Shown piece after piece: positions 29,435 through 50,766 of a DNA stretch of 64,000 nt. The notes beneath the pieces were generated by a model. That model saw nothing but the letters and a program-made list of their open reading frames with translations, was not told the origin of the DNA and ran no database searches. This stretch comes from Candidatus Zhuqueibacterota bacterium. Lineage in GTDB: Bacteria; Zhuqueibacterota; Zhuqueibacteria; Residuimicrobiales; Krinioviventaceae. The DNA lies in NCBI GenBank assembly GCA_016934825.1, contig JAFGSB010000070.1, positions 1 through 64,000 of the forward strand. Direction: 5' to 3'. How positions within the stretch are numbered: the first letter of the stretch is position 1; the number at the start of each line of letters is the position of its first letter. The position numbers were made by a program, and so were the translations under genes.

Positions 29435-30550
29435 TCATTTTAATGTCGTTTGTACACCATTTGGCGCTAAAAGCAGATCGTCGCCGGCAATATCGGACCA
29501 GGAATAATATTGAAAGGTCTTGTTATCGGACATGGCCACAAACATACCATATGGAAATTTTTCGTTCAGCGGGACGTTCGTAACCTCGGACCCGTCACTG
29601 TTATTGGTCGATACTTTAACCACCTTGATTAGTTTATGGTTATGCGGATCGTCCGCCTCGCCTTCACGTTTGAATATATGAAATTCATTCGCCGCCTGGT
29701 CGGAGACCAAAATATAACCCGTTCCGTCATTCACTTTATAAATTGAAATACCTTCGCGATCTTCCTGAAATCCGTCTTTTGCGAATAACGCCAGTTCAAC
29801 ATTGGCGTCGGGCGCATCCGGGTCGGCCGGGTATTTTCGAACACCTACTTTTTCATCCGAATAATATACATAACCAAGTTCATCGTCCACGGCTATCGCT
29901 TCGATCTCCTTTGTGCCGCTCCAGATTCCAAATTCACGTACCTTGGTTCCTTTGACATTTCCGGAGCCGTCGTCCTGTAACAGATACTGCCACAAATAAG
30001 ACCCATCTTCCGGTCCTTCTTTTCTGCCGGCAATGGCGAAAATCGCCCCGTCGGATGGTCTTTTGTACAACGAAATCCCCATCGGAGCGCGCAGGGTTTC
30101 ACCGCTGAACACTTCTATGCCGCCGTTATCTATTGCCTGCATGTCGGGCAGACTGAAAATGCGAATTTTGTTTGTTAATCTTTCCGTCGTCACGGCGATA
30201 TCAACAGGCTTGCCGTTGAGGATCAATCCGTACTCTATATCCACGTTATTCGGGCGTTTCAGATCCAAAACTTTATTGACAATTTTACCGTTCAGGTCAT
30301 ATACATACAATCCGCCATTTTCGTCTTTATCGGTCCCCACTACCAGGCTTAAAGACGTGTCTTCGGGATTGATCCAGATTGCCGGATCATCCGTGTCATA
30401 TACTACCGGTTCCGTTATAACAAGCGGCTTTATTGCATCACCTGCTGTTTGATTTTCCGGGGACTTTTTAGTACAAGCAGAATAAATTAAAAACAGCATG
30501 AAAAATGTCAAAACTAACATGAAAAACCGCTGTTTATCGGTCGTTTTCAT
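29435..30550 (-). CDS. Lipoprotein beta-propeller phytase (3-phytase type)
   Basis: A 371-residue protein with a lipoprotein-like signal (hydrophobic 10-24, then YSACTKK). The beta-propeller phytase opening is well kept: VVYDTDDPAIWINPEDTSLS, then VVGTDKDENGGLYVYDL. Further calcium- and phosphate-binding family segments are NNVDIEYG, GTKEIEAIAVDDELGYVYYSDE and VREFGIW. The enzyme would remove phosphate from myo-inositol hexakisphosphate in the periplasm or at the cell surface. AGGAGG precedes the start. An inositol importer and inositol pathway lie 12-21 kb away (43-51.9 kb), so phytate could supply both phosphate and inositol. Family assignment is strong. Confidence 0.87.
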   Translation of the reverse strand: MKTTDKQRFFMLVLTFFMLFLIYSACTKKSPENQTAGDAIKPLVITEPVVYDTDDPAIWINPEDTSLSLVVGTDKDENGGLYVYDLNGKIVNKVLDLKRPNNVDIEYGLILNGKPVDIAVTTERLTNKIRIFSLPDMQAIDNGGIEVFSGETLRAPMGISLYKRPSDGAIFAIAGRKEGPEDGSYLWQYLLQDDGSGNVKGTKVREFGIWSGTKEIEAIAVDDELGYVYYSDEKVGVRKYPADPDAPDANVELALFAKDGFQEDREGISIYKVNDGTGYILVSDQAANEFHIFKREGEADDPHNHKLIKVVKVSTNNSDGSEVTNVPLNEKFPYGMFVAMSDNKTFQYYSWSDIAGDDLLLAPNGVQTTLK

Positions 30551-30634: not shown

Positions 30635-32110
30635 TTATTCTATCAAAATCAGTTTTATCGTTTTCCATTCGGAACCCACCTGCAGGCGGCAAAAATAAAG
30701 TCCGCTTGGCAGCGGTTTTTCCCGCCCGTCTTTTGCGTTCCAGGTTACCGAATATTTTCCGGGACTGCTGAACCCGTCAACCAGAGTGGATACACGCCGC
30801 CCCGTAATATCATATATGTCCATTTTCACAAAACCCGCCGCGGGGATTACATAACGAATATTTGTAACCGGATTAAACGGATTCGGATAATTTTGATAAA
30901 GTTCAAGAGTTGTCGGCGTTATGAAATTATCTTTAGTCCCGGTTTGCGAAATTTCAAATTCAAATGCGCCAATATCGGGCGCCAAACCAAGATAATCCTC
31001 ATTGGAAAGATTTAATACCGTATCCCCCTGCCAGACAAAAAAAGCCGTCCCGCGATCTATGCACGGGCTGTCTTGCATCAGTCTGTAATTCTCATCCAAA
31101 AGCGGATTTTCGTTTATAATAACGGGCTGGACATTGCAGGAATCCATATCCGCGCCATTTTCCCAAAAAGCGCCGTATGATACAATCGAATGATTTTTCA
31201 CATTCTTAATCGCTGTGCCGGTATGTTTCAGGAAAATATTATTCAGCGCAACCAGGCTGGCTCCGCCGGTTATGCCGTAATGATTATTGACAAAGGTGTT
31301 GTTAATAACATATATTGGTTCCGGAATTGCCGCGCCTTCATAATTTTCCGTGGTGTTCTGGTTGCCCATACATCCCAAACCGACCATGTCATTATTACAG
31401 ATCAGATTATGTTCAATATAAAATACTCGGTCCGATAATTCTTTATAATCGATAAATTGTATACCATCCTCGCCGTTGCCGGAGATAATATTGTTGCGAA
31501 TGATACACGTCAAAAGCGGACCCGTGTAATCATAAAGTCTTATTTCGATTCCGTCATCCTTATTATTCACGATGACATTCGCTTCGATTTTAATATCCAC
31601 ATTATCGTCAAGGTCTATTGCGTCATCTTTGTTATTTTCAAACACATTATAAGAGCAGACGCCGCCGCTGTTTTTCTCATAATCAATTGCATCCTTACAA
31701 CCCTGAAAGCGATTGTGCAGTATTTGGACCCTGGCTTCACAGGCAATACCGTCATCGGCATTTTGGATGGTCAGGCCGGTGATCAAGGTTAAAGGGCCGA
31801 CATCTTTATCAATATAAATAATTTGACCGCTGTCGTTTCCGTCAATTACGGTTTGACGGACATAACTGGTATCGCCGGTCGTCAAAAACCAGGATGCCAG
31901 GGTAAGGGTCTTGCCGTTCAGCTCGACATGTTCGAAATAATCACCTGGGGCCACAAGTATGGTATCGTTATCCGCCGCCGCGTCGATTCCTGACTGGATT
32001 GTTTCCTGCTCATTCGGAATATGGATAACCTTTGCATACATTGGTGAGGAAAAGATCCCAATTACGATTAAAATTCTGAACAATAAAAAAATTTTAAATT
32101 TAACAAACAT
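30635..32110 (-). CDS. T9SS-exported parallel beta-helix protein
   Basis: A 491-residue protein with signal peptide (about residues 8-27), the opening VIHIPNEQETIQSGIDAAAD shared with the helix protein at 15600, and a beta-helix to about residue 370 with repeated coils (NNKDDAIDLDDNVDIKIEAN, NNKDDGIEIRLYDYTG). APDIGAFEFE ends the helix. Residues about 405-491 are a type A T9SS sorting domain: LYQNYPNPFNPVTNIRY, then GRRVSTLVDG and GLYFCRLQ. It is therefore predicted to be passed over the outer membrane and anchored or released. One copy of the TTAA element lies 92 bp upstream. Cargo activity unknown. Confidence 0.82.
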   Translation of the reverse strand: MFVKFKIFLLFRILIVIGIFSSPMYAKVIHIPNEQETIQSGIDAAADNDTILVAPGDYFEHVELNGKTLTLASWFLTTGDTSYVRQTVIDGNDSGQIIYIDKDVGPLTLITGLTIQNADDGIACEARVQILHNRFQGCKDAIDYEKNSGGVCSYNVFENNKDDAIDLDDNVDIKIEANVIVNNKDDGIEIRLYDYTGPLLTCIIRNNIISGNGEDGIQFIDYKELSDRVFYIEHNLICNNDMVGLGCMGNQNTTENYEGAAIPEPIYVINNTFVNNHYGITGGASLVALNNIFLKHTGTAIKNVKNHSIVSYGAFWENGADMDSCNVQPVIINENPLLDENYRLMQDSPCIDRGTAFFVWQGDTVLNLSNEDYLGLAPDIGAFEFEISQTGTKDNFITPTTLELYQNYPNPFNPVTNIRYVIPAAGFVKMDIYDITGRRVSTLVDGFSSPGKYSVTWNAKDGREKPLPSGLYFCRLQVGSEWKTIKLILIE

Positions 32111-32201
32111 AAAACCTGCCGATTTTTTATGAAATGGAAGTTAATTGCAATGGAAATAAGTCTTTTCTCGAATAAAAATTAAGCATAAAAAATTAAAAAG
32201 G

Positions 32202-32229
32202 GATTAAAATCAAATTAATATTTTTTAAT
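32202..32229 (+). promoter_or_regulatory. TTAA triple-repeat element, site 1
   Basis: Starts with GATTAAAAT and has TTAA at 32204, 32215 and 32225 (spacing 11 and 10 bp). It lies 92 bp upstream of the minus-strand beta-helix T9SS gene. The same layout recurs at 35743, 38842 and 39184. Candidate binding site of the response regulator at 37901. Confidence 0.5.
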
Positions 32230-32332
32230 CTAAAAAAGCACACTCTTATTAAAAGGCTGGAAAAGAATAAATTTTTATCTGAAAATGTAATATACTATAC
32301 CGTTTAATAACCGGTAACAGTAAAACGGATAT

Positions 32333-32365
32333 AAAAAAGGCACAACCGAAACGGTTGCGCCTTTT
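32333..32365 (-). terminator. Rho-independent terminator after the receptor remnant
   Basis: On the minus strand GGCGCAACCG, a 3-nt loop and CGGTTGTGCC form a 10-bp stem with one G-U pair, followed by six T. It follows the stop of the TonB-receptor remnant by about 27 nt and probably was that gene's terminator. In the plus direction the G-U becomes an A-C mismatch, so it should be weaker. Confidence 0.8.
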
Positions 32366-32391
32366 AGGTGATTATTGCATGGTGGTGTGTA

Positions 32392-32545
32392 TTACAGGCT
32401 AAATTCAAAACCGCCGTAAATTTCCGGGCCTCTGAATGCTGTGTTATAAAGGACCATTTTTCCATAATAGTCGTCTCTGAGGCTTTTCCATTTACGGACA
32501 CTGTCTTCACCTAACAGATTTTTGCCCTTGATGAACAAATTGCAA
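32392..32545 (-). pseudogene. C-terminal remnant of a second TonB-dependent receptor
   Basis: The minus strand reads NLFIKGKNLLGED, about 28 unlike residues, then PEIYGGFEFSL and a stop (TAA at 32392-32394). The end of the intact neighbouring receptor is FFLKGKNLLGED, a middle of similar length, then MEIYGGFEFTF. The reading frame has no start and the similarity stops next to the hairpin at 32549. This is what would remain of a tandem receptor gene after deletion of its first 95 percent. The middle is diverged, so it comes from an older paralogue and not from a fresh duplication. Confidence 0.75.
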
Positions 32546-32548
32546 ATC

Positions 32549-32568
32549 GGCGCAGATTACTCTGCGCC
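32549..32568 (-). terminator. Hairpin after the large TonB receptor gene
   Basis: GGCGCAG, a 6-nt loop and CTGCGCC form a perfect 7-bp stem, 38 nt after the receptor stop. The following minus-strand bases are GATTTGCAATTT, a weak T-tract, so termination may be partial. Confidence 0.55.
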
Positions 32569-32605
32569 GGTTTGTTGTAAGGGCAAAACAAAGAACAATT
32601 ACAAA

Positions 32606-35392
32606 TTAAAAAGTGAACTCGAAACCGCCATAGATTTCCATATCATTGTAACTATGACTGTATATAACCTCGTCTCCCAGACCAAGGCCGGCGATACCGG
32701 TATCATAGAGTAATCTGAGTCTGGTATATTCGTCTTCACCCAGCAGGTTTTTACCCTTTAAGAAGAAACGAACATTTTTGGTGAGGTTCTGGCGCAGGGA
32801 AATATCGAGATTGTTTTCGGCGTCATCCCATTCTTCTTCAAATTCACCCAATTCCTTGAAAATTGCCGCTTTGTGCTGAAAGGAAAGACGGCCGGAGAAA
32901 CCGATCCGCGCATTTTCATAACTCAAAGCAAGGTTGTAAACATCTGCTGCCTGATTCGGCAGGTCTCTTTTTGTGCCATCTTCTTCTTCCAGATAGGTAT
33001 CCATCTGGTGGGTCCAGTTTGCAAGGATACCGACTTCCGGCAGACCGAGAAAATCAAGCTGTCTTTGGATCGACAGTTCGATACCCTGGGCTTTCCCTTT
33101 TCCCACATTCTGAGGCTGTTCAACTACGTCTACTTCATAGCCGTGATACATGCGATCATCCGGACTAAAGAAAACAGACTGGATCACATCCGAAATATCT
33201 TTGTAAAAGAAACCAACTGACATGTGAGAGGCCAGCAGCGGTGAATAGTGCTCGAGCAAAAGATCAATGTTTGAAGAACGGGTCGGTACAAGGTCTTTGT
33301 TACCGGTAAAGAGTTCCAGATCTTCACGGTCATAGGAGTTGAATTCCACAAAATACCGGAACGATGGACGCGCAATACCTTTGGAGTAAGACGCACGTGC
33401 GACAAGGGCCATAGGTAACTTGTAACGCAAATGCAGTGACGGGAACAGATCGGTATATTCACCGGTTGCGTCAATCGAGGACTGTGATTCTGCAGTTTCG
33501 GGATTGTTTTTGCGGAAATTGTCCACCAGTCTGGACTCGGTAGTGGTTGATGTTTGTTCCACCCTGAGTCCCGGCAAAACCATGAAATTTTGGCCAAACC
33601 AGACTTCGGCCATGCCATAAGCCGCCGCAATAGTTTCGTTGGCGAGATAGTTCTCATCGATATCGGTACTGGATTCGGACAAGAAGACCATATTCAACGG
33701 CGGATCATATTCGATGATAAAATCCTGGTCTTTGGTAATATACCACGGTTTCGGATATTCAACTCCAAAGTCATCCAGATATTCCTCTGCCGCTTCATCG
33801 GTCAGGTCCAGGTCAAAGGAAGAAATTTCGGAATCCAGTTTCTGGTTCCAGCGGTCTTTGCTTTTATACTTGAAACCGGCTTTAATATAACCGCTTAACA
33901 TATCCGAATAAAACGGTTTTTTCACATTGGCAGCAACAACAATTTCATCTTCTTTAAAGGTTTCGGTTTCAAAATTATAGCTGTCAAAATAGAGTTTCTC
34001 AGTTTTAGGATCCCAATCTTTCCACTTTGTGCGAAAGTTACCCTGAAAATCATGGGATTCCTGGCCGCGGCCGCTGGTGTAACCAATGCTGTAATCGACG
34101 TTCATATCACCCATGATCATGTTTTCACCGCCAAGAGTTATATTCATAACATGCTTGGGCTCGTGTTTGACGTCATTCAGTTTTTCAAAACGTTCACTTT
34201 CATAGTTATGATCGAACTCGAGATCATAATCCGTCAGATTGTAGGCGGAATAGAATGTTCTCAGGGACAGTTTGTTGCCGATAGAGGGCCTCCACACCAG
34301 CGCGGTATTGAATCCGGCGCGGGTTTCGGTGGTTTCGGTCGGTCTCTCACTCCAGTAGCGGTTGCCCGGCGTGACGGCTTTACCGTCAAAGGTTTTGGCG
34401 CCTTCGCCGTCATTCATTTCCTTCATTTCTTCAATGGTGTCGGGATCAAAATCCCAGGCATGACGGTCGGTATATTCCGACATGCGATCGAGTTCATAGG
34501 TACCGGCAATAGAATACGCGAACTTGCCGCCAAAAAAGATGTCGCCAAGAGTGAGACTGGCTTTGGTGGGTCCAAAGCGGTCGAATTGTCCGATGGGAAA
34601 ATCCGCCGTATTACTTCCCGACATCCAACCCTGGTACAGTTTAGCCGTCAGCATTTGCCTGCTCGGTGCGTCCTTTAAAATAAAGTTAATGTTACCGGCG
34701 ATGGCGTCCGCATCCAGATCTGCTGTCTGGCCTTTGGAAACCTCGATGGCCTGGATGAGATCGATGGGGAAAGTCTGCAATGAAGCGTGCCGGTCTTCAG
34801 CAGCGTTTACGGCAGGAATTTTCTGTCCGTTCACGGTGGTCAGGGCCCAGTCTGCAGGCAGACCGCGCATAAGCGCTTCTGATCCGTCTATAATAACACC
34901 GGGAATACGTCCAACAGCTTCCACGGCTTCTTCATCCGGGAAACTACCCATCAAGTCCGCTGAAATAACATTTTTAATATTGGAGGCTTCGAACTGGGCA
35001 TTCAGGGCAGCAGCCTGAGATTGTAACAGACGTTCAGCGGTGACCGTCACTTCCTGTTGTTCGATAACCGATGTGGCCAGTTCAAAATCCAAAGTTGCTG
35101 TCCTGTTCGCCTGTACGGTCACTTCCTTGGTTTCATCGGTGTAACCGATATAACGGACCGTGACCTGGAAAGTGCCGGGAGGCACACTACCGATTAAAAA
35201 TTGCCCCTGATTATCCGTTGCCGTTCCGATATTGGTACCCTCAATCATAACATTGGCGCCGATCATGGCCTGGCCGGTTCCACCTTCAGTGACTGTACCT
35301 GTTAACCGGCCCGCCTGGGCATACAGGCTTCCCGTAAAAAACATGACTAACAATAGAGTTAAGATAAAACCCAAACTTTTTCTTTGTTTCAT
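32606..35392 (-). CDS. Large TonB-dependent receptor
   Basis: A 928-residue outer-membrane receptor. Signal peptide to about residue 25 (GSLYAQAG); carboxypeptidase-regulatory-like domain about 28-112 (LTGTVTEGGTGQAMIGANV, YIGYTDETKEVTV); TonB-box-like VTVTAERL near 125; plug about 135-245 (GRIPGVIIDGSEALMRGLP, IDLIQAIEVSKGQTADLDADAIAGNINF); then a long barrel ending in GGFEFTF with a terminal aromatic. The layout resembles receptors of the FCB group and of Caulobacter/Xanthomonas that take up oligosaccharides or peptides. There is no SusD-like partner nearby. A structured leader at 35469 and a TTAA element at 35743 precede it. Ligand unknown. Confidence 0.88.
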   Translation of the reverse strand: MKQRKSLGFILTLLLVMFFTGSLYAQAGRLTGTVTEGGTGQAMIGANVMIEGTNIGTATDNQGQFLIGSVPPGTFQVTVRYIGYTDETKEVTVQANRTATLDFELATSVIEQQEVTVTAERLLQSQAAALNAQFEASNIKNVISADLMGSFPDEEAVEAVGRIPGVIIDGSEALMRGLPADWALTTVNGQKIPAVNAAEDRHASLQTFPIDLIQAIEVSKGQTADLDADAIAGNINFILKDAPSRQMLTAKLYQGWMSGSNTADFPIGQFDRFGPTKASLTLGDIFFGGKFAYSIAGTYELDRMSEYTDRHAWDFDPDTIEEMKEMNDGEGAKTFDGKAVTPGNRYWSERPTETTETRAGFNTALVWRPSIGNKLSLRTFYSAYNLTDYDLEFDHNYESERFEKLNDVKHEPKHVMNITLGGENMIMGDMNVDYSIGYTSGRGQESHDFQGNFRTKWKDWDPKTEKLYFDSYNFETETFKEDEIVVAANVKKPFYSDMLSGYIKAGFKYKSKDRWNQKLDSEISSFDLDLTDEAAEEYLDDFGVEYPKPWYITKDQDFIIEYDPPLNMVFLSESSTDIDENYLANETIAAAYGMAEVWFGQNFMVLPGLRVEQTSTTTESRLVDNFRKNNPETAESQSSIDATGEYTDLFPSLHLRYKLPMALVARASYSKGIARPSFRYFVEFNSYDREDLELFTGNKDLVPTRSSNIDLLLEHYSPLLASHMSVGFFYKDISDVIQSVFFSPDDRMYHGYEVDVVEQPQNVGKGKAQGIELSIQRQLDFLGLPEVGILANWTHQMDTYLEEEDGTKRDLPNQAADVYNLALSYENARIGFSGRLSFQHKAAIFKELGEFEEEWDDAENNLDISLRQNLTKNVRFFLKGKNLLGEDEYTRLRLLYDTGIAGLGLGDEVIYSHSYNDMEIYGGFEFTF

Positions 35393-35468
35393 AACTCCTC
35401 CATCCTCATTTAATCTACTTTTTGATTAACTTATAGTTCATAAGACAAACAGAAAACTATTCTCTTAG

Positions 35469-35495
35469 CGTCAGGTAATCACTATTACCGTGACG
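35469..35495 (-). promoter_or_regulatory. Inverted repeat in the TonB receptor leader
   Basis: CGTCA-GGTAAT, a 4-nt loop, ATTACC, one extra G and TGACG form an 11-bp stem with a single bulge, 77-103 nt upstream of the receptor ATG. It could be an operator or an RNA stem in the leader. No T-run follows. Confidence 0.4.
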
Positions 35496-35742
35496 ATTCT
35501 TACTATAACAATCCGATTAAATGTTGAAGCCTCTCACCCCCTTTCTAATGTTTATCATTATATACATAAGGTTGGGTTGATTCGAGTTTTATAAAAAAGT
35601 TATTTGTCATCAACATAAATTTTTAAATATCTTTTCTTTATTAGTTATTACAATAAAAATCAAGATTGGGTAGTTAAACCGATATAGACACAATTAAAGA
35701 AGAAAAATTTCATCTGAAATTAAGAAAATAAAATTAACCAAA

Positions 35743-35770
35743 GATTAAAATAAGATTAATTTTTTTTAAT
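35743..35770 (+). promoter_or_regulatory. TTAA triple-repeat element, site 2
   Basis: Starts with GATTAAAAT; TTAA at 35745, 35756 and 35766, spacing 11 and 10 bp, identical to sites 1 and 3. It lies 351 bp upstream of the large TonB receptor on the minus strand, far for a core promoter unless the leader is long. Confidence 0.5.
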
Positions 35771-36088
35771 TTTTCGTGCACGTTATAATGCAAACAATAA
35801 TCAATTATTGCTCCTGCATTGGATTAACCATCATGGATATTTTTTTTCACAACAAAAATTAATCATATACTTTGACAATGCTAAAACAAAGTGAAAAAAT
35901 TTTTTATTCATGAAATTAAATTATCGGACTTTTTGGAGATATTTAGTAACAAATATAAGGTGCTTTGGCTGTTTAGTTAACTTTTTTTTGGGGGGGGGAA
36001 TTTATATCCTTCTTATTCGATTGGATATTTAAAAATATTACACTATTAAAATAATTATCGGATTTCCACAATTATTTTATCTCATGTT

Positions 36089-37888
36089 TTACACGGGTAA
36101 ATTTATCGAAAAAACACTTCCTTTTGATTCTACGCTTTCGACTTTAATTTCTCCATTATGCAAATCAACTATCCATTTCGTTATAGATAAACCCAGACCG
36201 CTTCCACCGGTTTCCCGTGATCTTGAAACATCTACCCTGTAAAATCTGTCAAAAATTTTATTTAACGAATCTTTAGGAATCCCGACACCATTGTCTTTTA
36301 CATTAAACGTTACATATTTGGTGTTTTTATACAATGAAAGTGTTACAGTCCCCCCCGGATTCGAATATTTTATGGCATTATTGACAAGATTTCCCAGAGC
36401 ACGTATTAATAATCCTTCATCGCCTGTGTACTCAAGAATTTCAATTCTATCTATATTTAATTTGATATCATTCTTCGCCGCCAGTATCTGGCACCGGCTG
36501 AGCGTATTCATTAATACTTCATCGAGACGGATATTTTTCTTCTCGATATAGATCTGACCGGCGTCTCCCCTGGCAAGCCATTGCAGATCATCAACAATTC
36601 TGGCCATATGCTCTATTTCCAGGGCCGCCTCTCTCAGGTTCCTTTGCGCTAAAGGTTTATTGATAATGATCTTTGACGCCATTTCAATTTCACCCATTAG
36701 AATACTCAATGGCGTACGCAGTTCGTGTGAGGCGTCGGCGATGAATGTTTTATGCAGCCGGAATGCGGCCGCCAGCCGGTCTAAAAGATCGTTGAAAGTT
36801 ATTACCAGGCGGGCAATTTCATCGTCAATCTCGGGAATGGGCAAACGTATATCGAGATTCTTGCTTGTAATATCATTAACACGCTCTATAACTTTATTGA
36901 CAGGAGTCAGAGCGCGTTTTGTTATAACGATACCGCCTCCCCATGATATGACGATTAAAAAAACGGCGCTTGATAAAATAATGATCCCTTGCTTGAGTAT
37001 TGAAAATTGCACGGACTTGATCGGTACGGCAACATCTACGGTATAGACGCAACCGGGGACCTTGTCATGGATTTCCGTATATTGTTTATATTTATTACCG
37101 AGGGAATCCTGAATATCGGCAAAATAATCCTTATGCGAATATTTTATTGGTAAATAAAGTCCTTTTCTCTCAGTGTCATTTGAAACCCAAAGTACGCTGT
37201 CCTGTTCAAAAAGATAACAATAAGCCCAGGCGTTCCGGTTTTTTAAATAAGCGCCAAGTGAATCCGGTTCATTTATATATAAATCAAACCCATCTCGTAA
37301 CACAGAGTTGGCAACATTATAAACAATATCATTATAATAGTTAAGATCGGATTTCGATTTTATATTGATACCGTTTTCAAAAACAGTTGCCACAAAATAA
37401 TGTGTGTTTATTCGATAACCTAAATAACCCAATCCCTCAAAATTTTTGTTTAAATAAGTAAATTGAAAGGGATTAAATCCCCACAATTCAGGATAATCAT
37501 CTTCAAATTGAAGATGATATTTTTTGACTTCATCCGATTCAAAAAGGGTCCTTCCTGTGTGCAGGTTTCGTATACGAACTAAACCGAAATCCTTTAATTT
37601 ATTATCAATTGTCTCATCGATTATTTCCTGGGCGACTCGATAACGAAATTCTGCAAGCATGTCGTCGGTCCAGTTTATTTCCTCGAAATCTGTTATATTT
37701 AAATCATTTCTGTACAGCGTCACCTCTTCATACATTTCACTGCAAAAAAGGTTCACCGCAAACTGAAAAGTTTCCCATTGATTTTTATATAAATGAATAA
37801 AAGTAAGAGTAGCAAAACTCAATACAATAATGGTTAAAAATATCAGGTACCATTTTGCTAATCTGGATTTTTGACGAAAAATATTCAT
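36089..37888 (-). CDS. Sensor histidine kinase of the OmpR-partner type
   Basis: A 599-residue inner-membrane kinase. First membrane helix about residues 13-32; a large periplasmic sensor domain of about 265 residues with no family I recognise; second helix about 300-323; HAMP about 324-376; HisKA with FIADASHELRTPLS (phospho-acceptor H388); HATPase with N box LGNLVNNAIKYS, G1 KDNGVGIPKD, F box FDRFYR and G2 GGSGLGLSI. It is 12 nt downstream of the response regulator, so they form an operon. The kinase core is closest in pattern to CusS/heavy-metal-type sensors, but the periplasmic domain is longer than theirs. Signal unknown. Confidence 0.92.
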   Translation of the reverse strand: MNIFRQKSRLAKWYLIFLTIIVLSFATLTFIHLYKNQWETFQFAVNLFCSEMYEEVTLYRNDLNITDFEEINWTDDMLAEFRYRVAQEIIDETIDNKLKDFGLVRIRNLHTGRTLFESDEVKKYHLQFEDDYPELWGFNPFQFTYLNKNFEGLGYLGYRINTHYFVATVFENGINIKSKSDLNYYNDIVYNVANSVLRDGFDLYINEPDSLGAYLKNRNAWAYCYLFEQDSVLWVSNDTERKGLYLPIKYSHKDYFADIQDSLGNKYKQYTEIHDKVPGCVYTVDVAVPIKSVQFSILKQGIIILSSAVFLIVISWGGGIVITKRALTPVNKVIERVNDITSKNLDIRLPIPEIDDEIARLVITFNDLLDRLAAAFRLHKTFIADASHELRTPLSILMGEIEMASKIIINKPLAQRNLREAALEIEHMARIVDDLQWLARGDAGQIYIEKKNIRLDEVLMNTLSRCQILAAKNDIKLNIDRIEILEYTGDEGLLIRALGNLVNNAIKYSNPGGTVTLSLYKNTKYVTFNVKDNGVGIPKDSLNKIFDRFYRVDVSRSRETGGSGLGLSITKWIVDLHNGEIKVESVESKGSVFSINLPV

Positions 37889-37900
37889 AGCGCGTATCGG

Positions 37901-38572
37901 TTATTCATCTTTTAACATATAACCCGCTCCGCGAATGGTGTGGATCAATTTAGGCTCACCGGGGATCTCAATCTTTTTCCGTAAATAATTCACAATAACA
38001 TCGATGACATTGCTGCCGGCATCAAAATGGATGTCCCACACATGCTCGGTGATCATGGTTCGGGTGACAATTTTATTCTTGTTTAATATTAAATATTCAA
38101 GCAGTGCAAATTCTTTATTTGTTAACTGGACCTCGTCGCTCCCTCTTTCAACCTTGCGTGTCCGTGTATCCAGTTTCAAATTACTGACCTCCATAACCAG
38201 ATTCATAGTACTATGACTTCTGCGTAAATGGGCACGCACCCGGGCCAGTAATTCATCAAATTCAAACGGTTTGGTAATATAATCATCCGCCCCGTTATCC
38301 AGCCCGCGAATCCGGCTCGAAACCTCACCCAATGCTGTCAACATGATGATGGGAATTTCTATTCCACCGTTACGCAGATTTTCACAGGTTTTCCATCCAT
38401 CCTGTTTTGGCAATAGTATATCCAATAATATTAAATCATAATCATTTGTATGAGCTAAAAATTCGGCTTCTTTACCATCCCCTGCGATATCCACCGCATA
38501 AGATTGTTCCTCAAACCCTTTTTTAATAAAACTTGCCAGACGTTTTTCATCTTCCACTACAAGAATTCTCAT
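37901..38572 (-). CDS. OmpR/PhoB-family response regulator
   Basis: A 223-residue regulator: receiver domain about 1-118 with the acidic pair ED at 7-8, phospho-acceptor D51 in LILLDILLP, T in MLTALG and K in DYITKPFEFDEL; winged-helix DNA-binding domain about 128-223 (LTNKEFALLEYLILNKN, VIDVIVNYLRKKIE, IHTIRGAGYML). All catalytic residues are present. The family binds DNA as tandem dimers on direct repeats about 11 bp apart; a matching repeated element lies 270 bp upstream of this gene and at three neighbouring promoters. It is cotranscribed with the kinase. Confidence 0.93.
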   Translation of the reverse strand: MRILVVEDEKRLASFIKKGFEEQSYAVDIAGDGKEAEFLAHTNDYDLILLDILLPKQDGWKTCENLRNGGIEIPIIMLTALGEVSSRIRGLDNGADDYITKPFEFDELLARVRAHLRRSHSTMNLVMEVSNLKLDTRTRKVERGSDEVQLTNKEFALLEYLILNKNKIVTRTMITEHVWDIHFDAGSNVIDVIVNYLRKKIEIPGEPKLIHTIRGAGYMLKDE

Positions 38573-38841
38573 AAAACACCTTTAAAATAATCTTCGACTC
38601 ACAAAGGGTGAAAAAAAACTATTCCCCTGACTGCCTGATTGTAAAATTTTAAATATCCAGGTACCATATTTACATCATATTTTTTTCAGATCAGATTACC
38701 GGTGACCGGAAAAATCCCGACACCTGTAGAAAATATAATAAATCTTTGTATTGAATCTAAAAAAAATTACATTGAGATACAATAAATTTACAGGCAAGTT
38801 AATATTATTCACTTAAAAATAGTAAACATTTATTAAATAAA

Positions 38842-38869
38842 GATTAAAATCACATTAAAAAAAATTAAT
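38842..38869 (+). promoter_or_regulatory. TTAA triple-repeat element, site 3
   Basis: Starts with GATTAAAAT; TTAA at 38844, 38855 and 38865, spacing 11 and 10 bp. It lies 270 bp upstream of the response regulator, which would fit autoregulation. Confidence 0.5.
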
Positions 38870-39183
38870 AATTTAAACATCATTTATCACGAATTGGCAT
38901 CACTCAAATGCGGATAAAAGACGCCTCCACCTGATTCGAAACACGTGTTCAATTTTATCAACTTACAAAATTAAAATAATTTTATTATTCCGGATAAATC
39001 AGGAAACCACCGATATCCTAATACTCTAATAAAATATATAGTTAGGAGTATCGTGTACGGTTAATAAGCGACATGATTAAATTGAGTTTTTAAATAATTT
39101 GTGAATGTAAACGGAAACCGATTTTTTATTCCATTTTATGTCATCCTCTACTGAAATATTGTTTTAGCGCCGTTTATTTTAAA

Positions 39184-39211
39184 GATTAAATTAAATTAAT
39201 GTTTTTTTAAT
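39184..39211 (+). promoter_or_regulatory. TTAA triple-repeat element, site 4, next to a promoter
   Basis: Begins GATTAAAT; TTAA at 39186, 39196 and 39207 (spacing 10 and 11), with one extra TTAA at 39191. It ends about 13 bp before the -35 box of the MFS promoter, the usual place for an activator. A perfect 10-bp inverted repeat AAAGATTAAA / TTTAATCTTT (39181-39190 and 39217-39226) overlaps both the element and the -35 box. Confidence 0.55.
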
Positions 39212-39223
39212 GATGCTTTAATC

Positions 39224-39251
39224 TTTACATTTTATATTATTAAGATACTAT
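39224..39251 (+). promoter_or_regulatory. Sigma-70-like promoter of the MFS/kinase operon
   Basis: TTTACA (39224-39229), a 16-bp spacer and TACTAT (39246-39251). The start of the coding region lies about 65 bp downstream. Five of six bases in each box agree with the consensus. Confidence 0.5.
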
Positions 39252-39317
39252 TTTAATTTTATTGTTTCTTTTTCTGAAAACAAAACGTTTATCGTGATGC
39301 TAATTAAGGAGATCGTT

Positions 39318-40667
39318 TTGAAATTATTCACATTTTTCGCTACAGGAAAAGATAAACCTCCGATTAAAGATCCTCAGCTCATAAACAAGCTCTTTAAACA
39401 AAGCCGATTGTCCGTGATGCTGGCAATAACCCTTGGATACGGATTTGCCTACACATGCCGGTTGGGATTATCCGTTGTAAAAAAACCGTTGATCGACGGC
39501 AATATTTTCACTGCGGATCAATTGGGAATGATCGGTTCGGGGATTTTTTACGGCTATGCATTTGGCAAATTGATAAACGGTTTTCTGGCCGATCATGCCA
39601 ATGTTAAAAAATATCTGGCTACCGGCATATTCATGTCGGCGTTGATCAACCTGACAATGGGTTGGTCCACCGCACTGTGGGTTTGGATTATATTATGGGG
39701 ATTAAACGGATGGTTCCAGGGATTTGGCGCGCCCTCCGGAATTGTATCTTTATCACAATGGTTTAGCAACAGTGAACGCGGCCGTTATTACGGAATCTGG
39801 AGTACGGCTCATGCGTTAGGCGAAGGACTGACCTTTATCGGTTCGGCCGCGTTGGTCGGCGCTTTAGGGTGGCGGGCAGGTTTTTGGGGACCCGGGATAC
39901 TTTGTATCCTTGTCGCCGTAGCGGTCTATTTATCCATGCGGGACCGCCCGCAAACCATGGGGTTGCCGTCGGTTGCCGAATGGAAAAATGATTTTGCGGT
40001 ATCTCAGAACGCTAAAAGCGACCAGAAAAAAACCGTATGGCAGGCGCAGCGAACTATCCTCAAATTGCCCGCAATCTGGGTGCTCGGACTTTCCAGCGCA
40101 ACCATGTACATGACAAGATACGCCATCAACAGTTGGGGATTTCTGTATCTTCAGGAAGCAAAAGGATATTCGTTTGTGATGGCCGGCAGTATGTTACTGC
40201 TCAATACATTGGCTGGAATAGCCGGATGTCTGGTTTTTGGTTACGCATCCGACAAGTTATTTAAAGCAAAAAGGCCCCCGGTTAACCTGATCTTTGCTCT
40301 GCTGGAAGTTATGGCGCTTTGCGTTCTGTTTTTTGGCCCCGAAGGGAAACCCATTTTAATCATTGGCGCTTTTTTAGTATATGGATTCGGCTTGAACGGG
40401 CTGGTCACATCATTGGGCGGTTTATTTGCCGTTGATATTGCCCCTAAAAGGGCGGCCGGTGCAGCACTGGGTTTTATCGGCGTCTTTAGCTACGTCGCTG
40501 CCGCCATTCAGGAAAGGATTAGCGGTCATTTAATCGAAAAAGGTACCACTATTATTGACGGTGTTCGGCATTATGACTTTAGCACACCTATCATTTTTTG
40601 GATCGGGACGTCGATAGTTTCACTTATTCTGGCAGCTTCTTTATGGCGGGCTGAAACTAGAGATTAA
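39318..40667 (+). CDS. MFS transporter of the organophosphate:phosphate antiporter (GlpT/UhpT) type
   Basis: A 449-residue inner-membrane carrier with twelve membrane segments. The OPA-like region YGFAYTCRLGLSVVKKPLID, the loop GFLADHANVKKYL and WFSNSERGRYYGIWSTAHALGEG match the GlpT/UhpT/PgtP group, which exchanges sugar phosphates or glycerol 3-phosphate for phosphate. I place the start at the TTG at 39318 because AAGGAG lies 6 nt before it; GTG/ATG codons at 39294-39299 lack a ribosome site. It is followed after 18 nt by a PfkB kinase. A substrate that is non-phosphorylated and phosphorylated inside by the kinase is an alternative to sugar-phosphate uptake. Confidence 0.85.
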   Translation: MKLFTFFATGKDKPPIKDPQLINKLFKQSRLSVMLAITLGYGFAYTCRLGLSVVKKPLIDGNIFTADQLGMIGSGIFYGYAFGKLINGFLADHANVKKYLATGIFMSALINLTMGWSTALWVWIILWGLNGWFQGFGAPSGIVSLSQWFSNSERGRYYGIWSTAHALGEGLTFIGSAALVGALGWRAGFWGPGILCILVAVAVYLSMRDRPQTMGLPSVAEWKNDFAVSQNAKSDQKKTVWQAQRTILKLPAIWVLGLSSATMYMTRYAINSWGFLYLQEAKGYSFVMAGSMLLLNTLAGIAGCLVFGYASDKLFKAKRPPVNLIFALLEVMALCVLFFGPEGKPILIIGAFLVYGFGLNGLVTSLGGLFAVDIAPKRAAGAALGFIGVFSYVAAAIQERISGHLIEKGTTIIDGVRHYDFSTPIIFWIGTSIVSLILAASLWRAETRD

Positions 40668-40685
40668 ACTGATGTGGAGTTGATA

Positions 40686-41573
40686 ATGGAAACCAATATG
40701 AAATATGATATCGCGATTATGGGCAATTATACCAAGGATACAATTGTTTCGCCCGCCGGTATAAGAATGGTTGACGGCGGAGGATTTAACTATGGGGCTC
40801 ATGCAGCCGTCCTTATGGGTCTCAAAGTGGCCGCGATAACACGACTTGCTGAAGAAGACAAACGTGTCGTTGAGACGCTCAGGAAATTGGGCGTTGATGT
40901 GTATCCAAAATACACACCGGAATCCACGCATATGCGGTTGTTTTACCCGACGACCAATGTTGATGACCGCGTGCTGAGCGTGACAAGTATTGCCGGGCCT
41001 TTTGAACCGGACCAGGTTAAGGACATCGAGGCAAGGGCTTTTCTTATCAACGCCTCGACCCGGGGAGAGGTCGACCTTGACGTTATCGACGAACTTGTAA
41101 AGAAAAACACCCTCGTTGTCGCGGACGCCCAGGGTTATGTTCGTATTATCAATCCCGAAGGGCAATTAATATATGATTCGTGGGAGGATAAACAATCCGT
41201 ATTATCAAAAATCGACATATTAAAGACAGATATTGTGGAAGCCGAGGCCATGACCGGGGAAAAAAACATGAAAACGGCCGCCAGGTTGTTATCGGAATTC
41301 GGACCGAAAGAAATCGTGCTGACGCACAAGTCCGGAGTGCTGGTTTATGCGGAAGGGCAGTATTACGAAGCGCCGTTCCTGCCAAAGGAACTGATTGGAC
41401 GCAGCGGTCGCGGTGACACCTGTATCGCGTCGTATGTCTCCAAACGTTTGAGCGCGTCTGCCGAAAAAGCCACCGTGTGGGCGGCGGCATTAACAAGTAT
41501 CAAAATGGAAGCGGAAGGACCGATCCGTAGACCGGTGGAGGATGTTGAAGAATTGATCCTGACAAAGTATTAG
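40686..41573 (+). CDS. PfkB-family sugar or inositol kinase, TM0415-like
   Basis: A 295-residue kinase of the ribokinase fold. The C-terminal anion-hole motif is GRSGRGDT with catalytic base D244. ADAQGYVRII, MTGEKNMKTAARLL, THKSGVLVY and SIKMEAEGPIRR closely follow the pattern I recall for the PfkB kinase TM0415, encoded inside the Thermotoga maritima inositol cluster. The start is the ATG at 40686, with GGAG 5 nt before it. It shares an operon with the OPA-type transporter and converges on the inositol operon, from which it is separated by a terminator. Likely substrate: an inositol or an inositol-derived sugar acid; this part is inferred. Confidence 0.8.
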   Translation: METNMKYDIAIMGNYTKDTIVSPAGIRMVDGGGFNYGAHAAVLMGLKVAAITRLAEEDKRVVETLRKLGVDVYPKYTPESTHMRLFYPTTNVDDRVLSVTSIAGPFEPDQVKDIEARAFLINASTRGEVDLDVIDELVKKNTLVVADAQGYVRIINPEGQLIYDSWEDKQSVLSKIDILKTDIVEAEAMTGEKNMKTAARLLSEFGPKEIVLTHKSGVLVYAEGQYYEAPFLPKELIGRSGRGDTCIASYVSKRLSASAEKATVWAAALTSIKMEAEGPIRRPVEDVEELILTKY

Positions 41574-41840: not shown

Positions 41841-42884
41841 CTATGGCTGCAATACAATTTTCATCGCTTTTTTGGGTATGGATTCCAGCGTATCCAGGTC
41901 CAAACCAAGTTTGGCAAATGCTCCGGGGCCTTCCTCTAACGGAATGACTTCGGTGAAAAAGGGTTTCATATTGATTTTTCCGGCCTCGAAAATTTTTATC
42001 GCCGGTAAACAGGTGTTCTGACCGATATATGTTCCCAAAATTTTTATAGCATTACGGGTGATATAATAAGGCTGAATTGCGGCCCTGCTGCTGTCATCCA
42101 TACCAAAGGCAAGGACTTTACCGCCGGGTGTTACATATTTCAGCGCATTTTCCAGTTGCGTTCCGACAGCGTCGATGACAATGTCCGCCTTTTTACCGCG
42201 GGTCAGTTTAATAATTTCCTCTTCGATGTCACACTCATCCGGGTTAAGCGCCGGAACATTTAGTTGCCGGGCAATGTTCAACCGGAACGGATCAATTTCC
42301 GTAACAATTGCGCGGGCGGCAATGTTTTTCGCCATCGATGCGAATAAATACCCGATGGGGCCGCAGCCAAGAACCAGTACAGTATCCCAGGGCTGCATTT
42401 GCACCGTATTCATTCCGTTTAAAACTGTGCCCAGCGTTTCTACCTGGGTTGCTGTAATATCGTCAATTTCATCCGGCAACTTGAAACACACATCTTCCGG
42501 CGCAACGCAGTATTCCGCGTAACCGCCGTTTTTATAAATGCCCAGTGTCCGGTTTTTCAATTCTACGCACTGGCTGCTGAATCCCATTCGACAAAAATCA
42601 CACAATCCGCAACGGGGATTATTATCCAGGGCGACCCTGTCGCCCACTTTGACGCTTGTTACCGCGGAACCGATTTCATGTACAATACCATTAAATTCAT
42701 GCCCAAGTACGGTATCTTTCTTATATGCGTGTTTACCCTGCATGATTTTCACGTCGGACCCGCAGATACCACACATTTTAACTTTAATGATAACCTGATC
42801 CGGTTGTTCTATTTGAGGCACCGGAATTTCAGTATATTCAATTTTACCGATATCTCGAAAGACCAATGATCTCATCGATTCCAT
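41841..42884 (-). CDS. Zinc-dependent polyol dehydrogenase (MDR family)
   Basis: A 347-residue medium-chain dehydrogenase. Catalytic-zinc ligands: C in MCGICGSDVK and H-E in GHEFNG; structural-zinc cysteines in NPRCGLCDFCRMGFSSQC (four Cys); NAD-binding VLGCGPIGYLF. It resembles sorbitol and galactitol-1-phosphate 5-dehydrogenases. AAGGAG precedes the ATG. It is the last gene of the inositol operon, 170 bp after the binding-protein gene. A redox step downstream of D-tagaturonate or on a related inositol isomer is a reasonable guess; the substrate is not readable. Confidence 0.82.
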   Translation of the reverse strand: MESMRSLVFRDIGKIEYTEIPVPQIEQPDQVIIKVKMCGICGSDVKIMQGKHAYKKDTVLGHEFNGIVHEIGSAVTSVKVGDRVALDNNPRCGLCDFCRMGFSSQCVELKNRTLGIYKNGGYAEYCVAPEDVCFKLPDEIDDITATQVETLGTVLNGMNTVQMQPWDTVLVLGCGPIGYLFASMAKNIAARAIVTEIDPFRLNIARQLNVPALNPDECDIEEEIIKLTRGKKADIVIDAVGTQLENALKYVTPGGKVLAFGMDDSSRAAIQPYYITRNAIKILGTYIGQNTCLPAIKIFEAGKINMKPFFTEVIPLEEGPGAFAKLGLDLDTLESIPKKAMKIVLQP

Positions 42885-43054
42885 AACTTACTCCTTTACA
42901 TCTATTTTGTTTTAATTATTTTTATAATAAAAATATTTACTTTTGCTAAAATTACTTACCGAATATTTCACCGTTCCATTCATTCTACCCTGATACATAA
43001 CACACACATGCCCGTTCCTTGTACCTAACAATCTATGACCGGAATAAACCGGCA

Positions 43055-43984
43055 CTATTTGGTTACAAGTTCAATTTTCACAGGAATATAGTCCGGGATA
43101 GTCTCTTTATTGATCAGATGAAAAGCATTGATAACGGCCAGTCTGCCCATTTCATACGGATTCTGGGCAATTGAACCGATCATTGTCCCGTTATTTATGG
43201 CTTCCCGGGCGTCAGTGGTTGCATCAAATCCCATTACAAAAATTTTTCCACTTTTACCTGCGGCGGCTATGGCTTCCACGGCACCCAATGCCATCATATC
43301 ATTGCAGGCAAAGACCGCCTGAATTTCAGGATGCGCCTGAAGAATATTTTGAAAAACATTAAAACCCTGGTCCCGTTCCCAGTTAGCCGTCTGGGATGCA
43401 ACGATTTCAATACCGGCGACATCGTCGACGGATTTGTGAAATCCTGACAGCCTGGAATCACCGGTTTCGTGACCGGGTATTCCTTCCAGCAGTGCGACTT
43501 TACCCCGCCCTTCAAGTTTATTAACAATAAATTCCCCGGCAATCCGGCCGCCCTCAAAATTATCCGATCCGATAAAAGTGAAGACCCGGCAACCGGCTTC
43601 CTTTAGGGTGGTTTTGTCTACACGGGTGTCTATCGTCAGGACCGGGATACCGGCGCGGTTGGCTTTGCAGATGGCGGGTACAATTTCCCTCGATCCGCTT
43701 GGCGCCACGCAGATAGCATCAACTTTTCGCTGTATGAGGTTCTCGATGATCTGCATTTGTTTCTCCACATCCACCTCGCGTTCGGCTGCCTGGGAAATCA
43801 ACTGGATACCCAGACTGTCGGCAACTTCTTTTGCGCCTTTTTCCATATCGATAAAAAATGGATTGTTCAATGTCTTCATAACCAGTGCTACCGCGGGTCC
43901 TCCTGATTTTTCACTTCTTTGACAGCCCACAACTAATAATAAACAGAAAACAAAAAACATTAAAAAAACTGATAATTTTTTCAT
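43055..43984 (-). CDS. Periplasmic sugar-binding lipoprotein, RbsB type
   Basis: A 309-residue substrate-binding protein with lipoprotein signal (LLLVVGCQRS). The mature chain has the periplasmic-binding fold 1 pattern: VALVMKTLNNPFFIDMEKGAKE, then AICVAPSGSREIVPAI, VLTIDTRVDK, FIGSDNFEGGRIAGEFI and AVFACNDMMALGAVEAI. It delivers the ligand to the RbsC-type permease whose gene lies 16 nt upstream. In Caulobacter an RbsB-type protein (IbpA) with a related ATPase and permease carries myo-inositol; the present operon content argues for the same ligand. That ligand is inferred from context. Confidence 0.88.
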   Translation of the reverse strand: MKKLSVFLMFFVFCLLLVVGCQRSEKSGGPAVALVMKTLNNPFFIDMEKGAKEVADSLGIQLISQAAEREVDVEKQMQIIENLIQRKVDAICVAPSGSREIVPAICKANRAGIPVLTIDTRVDKTTLKEAGCRVFTFIGSDNFEGGRIAGEFIVNKLEGRGKVALLEGIPGHETGDSRLSGFHKSVDDVAGIEIVASQTANWERDQGFNVFQNILQAHPEIQAVFACNDMMALGAVEAIAAAGKSGKIFVMGFDATTDAREAINNGTMIGSIAQNPYEMGRLAVINAFHLINKETIPDYIPVKIELVTK

Positions 43985-44000
43985 AGTTCGTTTTCTCCGG

Positions 44001-44948
44001 TTATTTTTTACTCTTTTTTAAAGCCATATCAATTAATACCGCAAAAATAATAACTGAACCGATAACAGTCTGTTGTACAAAGGACGAAACACCCAGCAGA
44101 TTGAGCCCGTTTCTCAGAACACCCATAATCAGAGCGCCGATCAGAGTACCCACTATTGTTCCCTCGCCTCCGACAAGACTTGTTCCCCCGATAACGGTTG
44201 CCGCAATGGCGTCTAATTCATACATCATTCCGGCAATGGGCTGGGCGGAGTTAAGCCGCGCCGTTAAAATAATGGCGGCAAGTCCGCTCAGCATTCCACA
44301 TAACCCGTATACGATTGTTTTAAACATCCTGACATTAACCCCTGACAATACAGCCGCCTCTTCATTGCCGCCCATCGCGTAGGTATATCGCCCCAGCTTG
44401 GTATGGGTCAGCAGATAATGCGCGACAAAATAAACGAAAATCATAATAATGATCGGCGTCGGGATATATAAAATCTCCCCGTTTGCCAGAAAACGAAATG
44501 TATTGGAAAAACCGGAAATCGGCCTGCCCTGGGTAAATAACAGAGCGGCGCCACGGGCGACACTCATCATACCCAGGGTCGAGATAAAGGGGGGCAGTTT
44601 TCCGAAAGTGATCAATAACCCGTTCACTAAACCGCATACAAGACCGACGAGCAGACCAATTAAAAGAGCCAGCGGAAGCGGTATTCCGACCTGTATGGCC
44701 CAGGCCAGCACAACACCGGAAAAAGCCAGGATAGAACCGACAGACAGATCGATACCCGCGGTAATGATGACAAAGGTCATCCCCACCGCAATGATTGCAT
44801 TTATTGAAGTCTGCTGGGCTATATTAAGCAAATTGGAGACGGTCAAAAAATAGGGTGTCAATATCCATAAAATCGCTGATAACACCAAAAGTCCGATCAA
44901 AGTTCCAAATTGCCGCCCATAATGTATTAAAAAATCCTTTTGCTGCAA
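44001..44948 (-). CDS. Sugar ABC transporter permease, RbsC type
   Basis: A 315-residue inner-membrane permease with eight to ten hydrophobic segments. Family hallmarks are NAIIAVGMTFVIITAGIDLS, VGSILAFSG, GLINGLLITFGKLPPFISTLG and EGTIVGTLIGALIMGVLRNGL. The start is a TTG at 44948 directly after the ATPase stop, with GGAGG 7 nt before it, so translation is coupled. It forms the channel for the binding protein at 43055. Confidence 0.9.
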   Translation of the reverse strand: MQQKDFLIHYGRQFGTLIGLLVLSAILWILTPYFLTVSNLLNIAQQTSINAIIAVGMTFVIITAGIDLSVGSILAFSGVVLAWAIQVGIPLPLALLIGLLVGLVCGLVNGLLITFGKLPPFISTLGMMSVARGAALLFTQGRPISGFSNTFRFLANGEILYIPTPIIIMIFVYFVAHYLLTHTKLGRYTYAMGGNEEAAVLSGVNVRMFKTIVYGLCGMLSGLAAIILTARLNSAQPIAGMMYELDAIAATVIGGTSLVGGEGTIVGTLIGALIMGVLRNGLNLLGVSSFVQQTVIGSVIIFAVLIDMALKKSKK

Positions 44949-46439
44949 TTAATCACCTCCCAGGGCTTTGTGTAATATTTTTTCCTGTGTGGCTTCTTCT
45001 GCGGAAAATTCGCCGGCGATCCGGCCCTGGTGCATCACCAGGATTCGGTCGCTCATTCCCAAAATCTCGGGTAATTCGGATGATATCATTATAATGGCCA
45101 CACCGCCTGCAATGAGTTTATTCATCAATTCATATATTTCGACTTTTGAACCCACATCGATACCCCTTGTGGGTTCATCAAAGATCAAAACATCGACATT
45201 GGTACAGAGCCACTTGCTGATAATGACTTTTTGCTGGTTGCCCCCGCTCAGGTACATTACTTTTTGATACATACCCGGAGTTTTAATGCGGAGTTCATTT
45301 ATATAAAAATCCGCCGCTTCGACTTCTTTTTTCCGATTGACGACTCCCAGTTTCGAAAATCTGTCAACGCTCGGCAGACAAATATTTTCTTTTACGGATA
45401 AATTTAAAATCAATCCCTGGCATTTTCGGTCCTCGGTAAGAAAGCCGATATCCAGGTTAATCGCGCTGCGGGGACCGGTAATTTTCACCTGTTTTCCCTT
45501 TACAAAGATATTACCGGAATCGATCCGTTCGGCCCCGAAAATTGCCCTGGCCAGTTCCGTACGTCCGGAACCCAAAAGACCGGCAATTCCTAAAATCTCA
45601 CCACGATAGAGTGAAAAATTTATATCATGCAGTACCGTATCTTTTTCCACATTTTGCAGGCGGAGTATTTCATCTCCTATTGCCGCTTTCTTTTTCGGAA
45701 ATTGTTCCTTTAGTTCACGATTCACCATCATGCGGATCAGTTCCGGTTTGCTGATGTCGTCAATACGATGGGTCCCGATATACTTTCCGTCCCGCAAAAT
45801 GGTCACCCGGTCGCCGATTTCAAAAAGCTCCTCAAGCCGATGGGAAATATAAATAACGGAGACGCCTTTTTTTAAAAGGTCCCGAATGGTGGCAAACAGC
45901 CGTTCAATTTCCTGTTCGGTGAGGGCGGATGTGGGTTCATCCATGATCAGAATTCTGGCATCCAGGGACAGCGCTTTTGCAACTTCGACCATTTGCTGCT
46001 GCGCCACACCCAGATCTTTTACAAGTGAGCGGGCGTTTATTTCCACTCCCAGATCGTCCAGTATCTTTTGCGCCGAATTGTACAATTTTTTCAGGTTCAG
46101 AACCCCAGGCATCAAAGTGGGTTCCCTGCCGAGGAAAATATTTTCGGCTACCGAGAGATGAGGAACCAGATTAAATTCCTGGTAAATAATACTGATACCC
46201 AGGTCCTGCGCGTGTTTCGGATTTTTGATTTCGATTTCTTTACCGTCAAGAAATATTTGTCCGCTGGTTTTTTGGTACGCCCCGCTTAAAATCTTGACAA
46301 GCGTCGATTTCCCGGCGCCGTTCTCGCCCAGCAGGATATGGACTTCCTCACCAAGTTCAAAATCCACATTATCCAGTGCGACAACACCGGGAAAGATCTT
46401 ACAGATCTTGCGCATTTCAAGTTTAAAATTCTTGTTCAT
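44949..46439 (-). CDS. Sugar ABC transporter ATPase, RbsA type
   Basis: A 496-residue protein with two ABC domains. The first has Walker A GENGAGKST, signature LGVAQQQMVEVAKALSL and Walker B ILIMDEPTSAL; the second has GLLGSGRTELARAIFG, signature LSGGNQQKVIISKWL and VLIFDEPTRGID. The degenerate Walker A of the second domain (GLLGSGRTE) is normal for RbsA-type proteins. It precedes the permease with no gap. Probably powers inositol import. Confidence 0.92.
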   Translation of the reverse strand: MNKNFKLEMRKICKIFPGVVALDNVDFELGEEVHILLGENGAGKSTLVKILSGAYQKTSGQIFLDGKEIEIKNPKHAQDLGISIIYQEFNLVPHLSVAENIFLGREPTLMPGVLNLKKLYNSAQKILDDLGVEINARSLVKDLGVAQQQMVEVAKALSLDARILIMDEPTSALTEQEIERLFATIRDLLKKGVSVIYISHRLEELFEIGDRVTILRDGKYIGTHRIDDISKPELIRMMVNRELKEQFPKKKAAIGDEILRLQNVEKDTVLHDINFSLYRGEILGIAGLLGSGRTELARAIFGAERIDSGNIFVKGKQVKITGPRSAINLDIGFLTEDRKCQGLILNLSVKENICLPSVDRFSKLGVVNRKKEVEAADFYINELRIKTPGMYQKVMYLSGGNQQKVIISKWLCTNVDVLIFDEPTRGIDVGSKVEIYELMNKLIAGGVAIIMISSELPEILGMSDRILVMHQGRIAGEFSAEEATQEKILHKALGGD

Positions 46440-46489
46440 ACAGTTTGTCTGTCGTTTTTTGCCGATCAGATAAAATGATCACTTTTTTA

Positions 46490-47290: not shown

Positions 47291-47293
47291 AGG

Positions 47294-48388: not shown

Positions 48389-48445
48389 ATCTATTTCCTT
48401 TCATTCATTCATACTTTAATACTTTTAATACGTTGACCTTCAAAA

Positions 48446-49633: not shown

Positions 49634-49715
49634 AACAATACCTCCATTTATACTATTGTATACTTGATTAGATAAATTAAATTATAAAGAACTTTGCTCA
49701 TTCGATTTATCAATC

Positions 49716-50729: not shown

Positions 50730-50766
50730 GTTCACAGCCTCTGATTTTACTATTAGAATTTCAATT

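Follow-up and report, generated by a model that had tools for sequence, protein, structure and literature searches.

Arrays of four TTAA half-sites as predicted operators of a local two-component system in a Candidatus Zhuqueibacterota bacterium

Architecture and occurrence of the TTAA arrays

Regulators of the OmpR/PhoB family bind direct repeats head to tail as tandem dimers, and PhoP of Mycobacterium tuberculosis binds four-motif DNA tighter than two-motif DNA (PMC4832192). SaeR of Staphylococcus aureus binds GTTAA-N6-GTTAA (PMC5083920). In the KdpE site of Enterobacteria, an AT-rich spacer of 5 bp separates the 6-bp half-sites TTTATA and TTTACA (PMC3264566). Here we describe four TTAA arrays in a 64,000-nucleotide stretch of a Candidatus Zhuqueibacterota bacterium (contig JAFGSB010000070.1, positions 1 to 64,000; hereafter the window), each of which is, with good probability, an operator for the OmpR/PhoB-family response regulator encoded among them (37901–38572, minus strand).

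Each copy spans 36 bp and has the form TTAA-N6-TTAA-N7-TTAA-N7-TTAA when read in the orientation of the gene that follows, with half-sites at offsets 0/10/21/32 in all four, i.e., direct repeats with a periodicity of about 10–11 bp. Array 1 (TTAAAAAATATTAATTTGATTTTAATCCCTTTTTAA, 32193–32228, minus strand) lies about 82 bp upstream of the start codon (32110) of a beta-helix protein gene, after which a phytase gene follows; array 2 (TTAAAAAAAATTAATCTTATTTTAATCTTTGGTTAA, 35734–35769, minus strand) about 340 bp before the start (35392) of a TonB-dependent receptor; array 3 (TTAATTTTTTTTAATGTGATTTTAATCTTTATTTAA, 38833–38868, minus strand) about 260 bp before the start (38572) of the response regulator; and array 4 (TTAAATTAAATTAATGTTTTTTTAATGATGCTTTAA, 39186–39221, plus strand) upstream of an operon for an MFS transporter and a PfkB-family kinase. 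None of them has a mismatch and all are oriented toward the gene downstream. In the alignment, the invariant bases outside the core are T at offsets 14, 16, 19, 20 and 25; the half-sites are mostly followed by T and have no leading G, and the likeness among the copies ends at the array borders. A preliminary description, made from the letters alone, had rightly placed four repeat copies before these same genes. It had counted three half-sites per copy, and our scan found a further, gene-proximal TTAA in each. The deviant spacing it had assigned to copy four arose from an additional internal TTAA at offset 5 (39191), misread as phase; with the fourth half-site at 39218, the spacing equals that of the others.

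Among the described operators, the SaeR box is alike in its TTAA core, its 11-bp direct repeat, its OmpR/PhoB-family regulator and the presence of sites before the system's own genes (PMC5083920). However, perfect SaeR sites are described as pairs with a leading G, whereas the window arrays have four half-sites at 10/11/11, no leading G and no match to GTTAA-N6-GTTAA; the SaeR system moreover controls unrelated genes in a distant phylum. PhoP of M. tuberculosis forms a comparable head-to-tail oligomer on direct repeats, but its 7-bp motifs are separated by a strict 4-bp spacer, and its four-motif DNA was a test sequence (PMC4832192). The PhoP boxes of Bacillus phyC and phyL are direct repeats TT(T/A/C)ACA to which a PhoB-family regulator binds, and likewise serve a beta-propeller phytase gene (PMC6327384). 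Unlike them, the window half-site is TTAAT and not TTAACA, the window regulator scores best on CusR/CzcR and not on PhoB profiles, and the proposed system is island-specific. The KdpE site shares the AT-rich direct repeats, but has two half-sites of other sequence and no four-fold array.

The four copies occur far above chance. Indeed, TTAA-N6-TTAA-N7-TTAATC was found three times in the window and never in 100 window shuffles, and TTAA-N6/7-TTAA-N7-TTAA gave 12 matches versus 0.18 expected, against the random AT-rich matches that the preliminary description had feared. Across the 179 contigs of the genome (5.39 Mb) there are six perfect arrays, four of them inside 7.1 kb of the window, and no match to the reversed control pattern; six perfect arrays in total, at most one or two per genome, were retrieved from 81 other genomes of the phylum. 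The equal frequency in unrelated AT-rich spacers that would have refuted the preliminary interpretation was thus not borne out. When two mismatches were allowed, the genome scan gave 83 matches versus 136 controls, a tolerance that admits background, so that arrays are informative only when they match perfectly or nearly so. A profile search with the four window sites recovers them, but weaker sites could not be told apart from noise in relatives, and fixed-spacing patterns were used instead.

No further copy exists in the window, as the preliminary description had reported; on other contigs, however, two more perfect arrays and one near-match stand before genes, and the predicted regulon therefore exceeds the window, to which it had been thought confined. 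The perfect array C16:30970–31005 precedes a NagB-like gene, followed by CBM9, Gfo/Idh/MocA, DegT, SSS-symporter and PIG-L genes. The second, C174:4583–4618, precedes the gene for a 767-amino-acid protein with a lipoprotein-like start and no Pfam match, and the near-match C60:53521, in which three half-sites are perfect and the fourth is degenerate, precedes a DUF5916 gene. A matrix trained on the four window sites only, scoring the spacer bases alone, ranked C16 (z 2.9) and C60 (z 2.6) higher than any of the 65 background sequences, while C174 scored weaker (z 1.8, with 6% of the background as high). The C174 array may border an insertion element, since a transposase-like gene (L063 2936–4501, contig C174) terminates about 81 bp short of it.

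The best sigma-70-like match beside an array is TTTACA-N16-TACTAT at 39224, directly after array 4; the −35 box of the preliminary description (TTTACA) is thus present, at that copy only. Over the region, sigma-70-like matches were not above chance (24 vs 22.3 in shuffles).

The two-component system and its regulator clade

The regulator gene at 37901, correctly assigned in the preliminary description to the OmpR/PhoB family, encodes Response_reg and winged-helix Trans_reg_C domains and is CusR/CzcR-like by profile (best TIGR01387, 262 bits, under the cut-off of 279). Its partner is a sensor histidine kinase (36089–37888, minus strand) with HAMP, HisKA and HATPase_c domains. By sequence, the periplasmic sensor domain of the kinase has no detected relative, either in the other 81 genomes of the phylum or in the genome collection, and its single-sequence structure prediction was unusable (mean pLDDT 36.6); these 81 genomes also hold no orthologue of the whole two-component system. 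The position of array 3 upstream of the response regulator's own gene would predict autoregulation, and none of 200 shuffles of this upstream region yields such a chain.

Homologues of the regulator in the phylum reach about 55% identity at most. The regions upstream of 29 homologues and of the gene itself were scanned for chains of four TTAA at 10–11-bp spacing, with 200 dinucleotide shuffles each. Chains were found at the own gene and at four of the 29 homologues (G061, G081, G025 and G038; 43–49% identical to the 37901 regulator), each with 0/200 shuffles, the remaining homologues reaching one; the homologue in G048 has a TTAA/TTAC chain. In particular, the arrays of G061 and G081 have the perfect 10/11/11 form; these two of the six perfect arrays of the other genomes stand immediately upstream of response-regulator genes 47–49% identical to that at 37901, for which chance is about 3e-8. 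In the tree, all five array-bearing regulators fall in one clade and no array occurs among the homologues outside it (Fisher 0.002), and all five share a recognition helix of the pattern N/S-[Y/H]-LR (5/11 vs 0/19, p 0.003), both p-values being optimistic owing to the relatedness of the regulators. None of the regulators with an [R/K]R-LR recognition helix has an array. Since the arrays track one regulator clade across genomes, binding by the local OmpR/PhoB-family regulator is supported.

An operon of regulator, outer-membrane protein, small secreted protein and kinase was observed in G081 (where a Porin_O_P match was obtained), G025 and G038. Operons of this kind (L172, L173, L162 and L161) span several families of the phylum, and four-TTAA chains lie near their regulator in three genomes.

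The putative phytate/inositol island

The genes behind the arrays belong to an island whose function, judged from its gene families, would be the conversion of phytate to inositol and on to central metabolism. The inositol pathway of Thermotoga is established, and the function inferred here agrees with it. The proposed target of array 1 is a right-handed beta-helix protein with a T9SS (type IX secretion system) C-terminal sorting domain (30635–32110, minus strand; PF13229, PF18962), and a beta-propeller phytase (29435–30550, minus strand; PF02333, E 5e-49), separated by a gap of about 85 bp, is possibly the second gene of the same operon. The proposed target of array 2 is the TonB-dependent receptor (32606–35392, minus strand; identified by domain match), a gene also present in the island of relatives. 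Just downstream of it, a C-terminal remnant of a second TonB receptor (32398–32545, minus strand; 54 amino acids, 43% identical to the intact end, E 4e-9) was detected, the trace of a duplication. By profile matches, the proposed target of array 4 is an MFS transporter of the UhpC/GlpT organophosphate group (39294–40667, plus strand), probably co-operonic with a PfkB-family, KDG-kinase-like sugar kinase (40674–41573, plus strand).

A Thermotoga-type inositol catabolic block without an array of its own (41841–50735, minus strand) encodes ADH, an RbsABC-like ABC importer, IolO, IolN, IolM and an IolG-like protein. IolM, IolN and IolO score above their NCBIfam cut-offs (496/450, 316/245 and 357/300 bits, respectively), and the IolG-like protein just below (336 bits vs 355). 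A LacI/GntR-type regulator gene is also found in the island.

Phytase orthologues 67–71% identical occur in the island of four relatives, and the MFS orthologues of island-bearing relatives are 68–71% identical. In G010, G014 and G018 the phytase, PfkB, MFS and iol genes (53–82% identical) form one co-directional block, with a more divergent TonB receptor, and these three relatives have no kinase/regulator pair and no array even within two mismatches. In the window, the kinase/regulator pair separates the TonB gene from the MFS gene, and the MFS-PfkB segment is inverted compared with the co-directional block of the relatives.

No TTAA array was found in 1.2 Mb of sequence from many phyla, made up of 80 loci that surround MFS relatives. 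In 23 of these loci, in Luteimonas, Pseudoxanthomonas, Rhodanobacter and Caulobacter (L205, L213, L218, L223, L229 and others), an OmpR-family regulator only 33–37% identical to the 37901 regulator is encoded about 3–6 kb from the MFS relative.

Candidate binders of the arrays and meaning

The array family is genuine and well delimited, and it probably serves the local regulator. Of the regulon that the preliminary description had assigned to the local two-component system, the regulon-like direct-repeat operators beside the regulator stand; the local regulator as their binder is likely as a prediction. Under this reading, the kinase 36089 would sense a cue in the periplasm, which is probably phytate itself, a product of its breakdown or a shortage of phosphate, and would phosphorylate the regulator 37901. 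By analogy with tandem OmpR/PhoB-family binding, two dimers per array are proposed; the regulator would load head to tail on the four TTAA half-sites, along one helix face, and would recruit RNA polymerase. The predicted activation would give higher expression of four units: beta-helix/phytase, TonB receptor, MFS/kinase and the two-component system's own genes. At least two more loci, those on contigs C16 and C60, would respond to the same signal, and possibly the C174 locus as well.

Several observations weigh against this reading. The distance from array to start codon ranges from about 72 to 340 bp, and promoter placement is convincing for array 4 only. The profile model alone leaves the C16 site non-significant (E 0.5, comparable to noise in relatives), and this site stands out only through fixed spacing and spacer similarity. 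About half of the regulators inside the array clade have no upstream array, and the arrays of G061 and G081 point away from the regulator gene. Across genomes, the site is conserved with the regulator at homologues in four other genomes, but the same-genus genome G001 has neither the arrays nor the two-component system, so that no close footprint is possible.

A further point against it comes from the genome's own PhoB-like regulator (on contig C90), whose gene is also preceded, 72 bp upstream, by a chain of four TTAA, TTAATCTAATATTAATTTAATGTTAAGAAATTGTTAA (L171 4798–4834), the chain itself being followed by a good TTGACA-N17-TAATTT promoter; TTAA arrays are therefore not unique to one OmpR/PhoB-family regulator in this genome. 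It is conceivable, though unlikely, that the window arrays are Pho boxes of this regulator, placing the phytate genes in a general phosphate-starvation regulon of which the local two-component system would be merely a target. The C90 gene lies beside a kinase and divergent from a PHO4/PiT-type phosphate permease, a phytase is a natural Pho gene, and phytase promoters of Bacillus do carry PhoP boxes TT(T/A/C)ACA (PMC6327384). On the other hand, the C90 chain is spaced 11/11/11 and not 10/11/11, its spacers are unlike those of the window arrays (z 1.1 vs 2.6–2.9 for C60 and C16), the densest array cluster surrounds the local regulator, itself with an array, and in other genomes the arrays follow the clade of the local regulator. 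Cross-binding may occur. As an anchor for pst genes, PhoU gave a weak match only, inside a 550-amino-acid frame, and none above the cut-off.

Even less probable is binding by a regulator encoded elsewhere, or by a nucleoid-type protein favouring helically phased AT tracts, with no two-component regulator involved: the arrays are very AT-rich and phased by about one helical turn, and the sensor kinase offers no hint of a ligand, but if generic A/T tracts merely had to be in phase, no exact TTAA at fixed offsets of 10/11/11 would be required, nor would perfect arrays be concentrated next to response-regulator genes elsewhere in the phylum. That the copies are a dispersed repeat or a chance likeness without regulatory role is strongly disfavoured. 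The DNA is indeed intergenic and AT-rich, with near-homopolymeric spacers in some copies, but the shuffles and the genome-wide reversed controls gave nothing, the likeness stops at the array edges, the orientation to the genes is uniform, and no known structured RNA family (Rfam, 32000–39600) was matched.

Taken together, the arrays are most likely a predicted new example of an already known kind of gene control, with the local regulator, rather than the PhoB-like one, as the likely binder. More tentatively, a clade of CusR/PhoB-like regulators in this phylum, whose relatives are deposited as candidate division KSB1, might have TTAA arrays of four half-sites, each for two tandem dimers, as operators, one member having been captured by the phytate/inositol island; phytate scavenging would then have dedicated two-component control, exerted by way of a sensor domain without known relative and apart from the general PhoB-like system. 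An operator code that follows the recognition-helix pattern across the clade would aid regulon prediction where a genome is not open to manipulation. The locus offers an operator sequence that can be tested, together with a regulator and a list of targets, for the use of phytate in an uncultured phylum. The island genes are probably those with which the bacterium scavenges plant phosphate (phytate), and the finding suggests that a dedicated sensor, instead of the phosphate-starvation system, can govern such scavenging.

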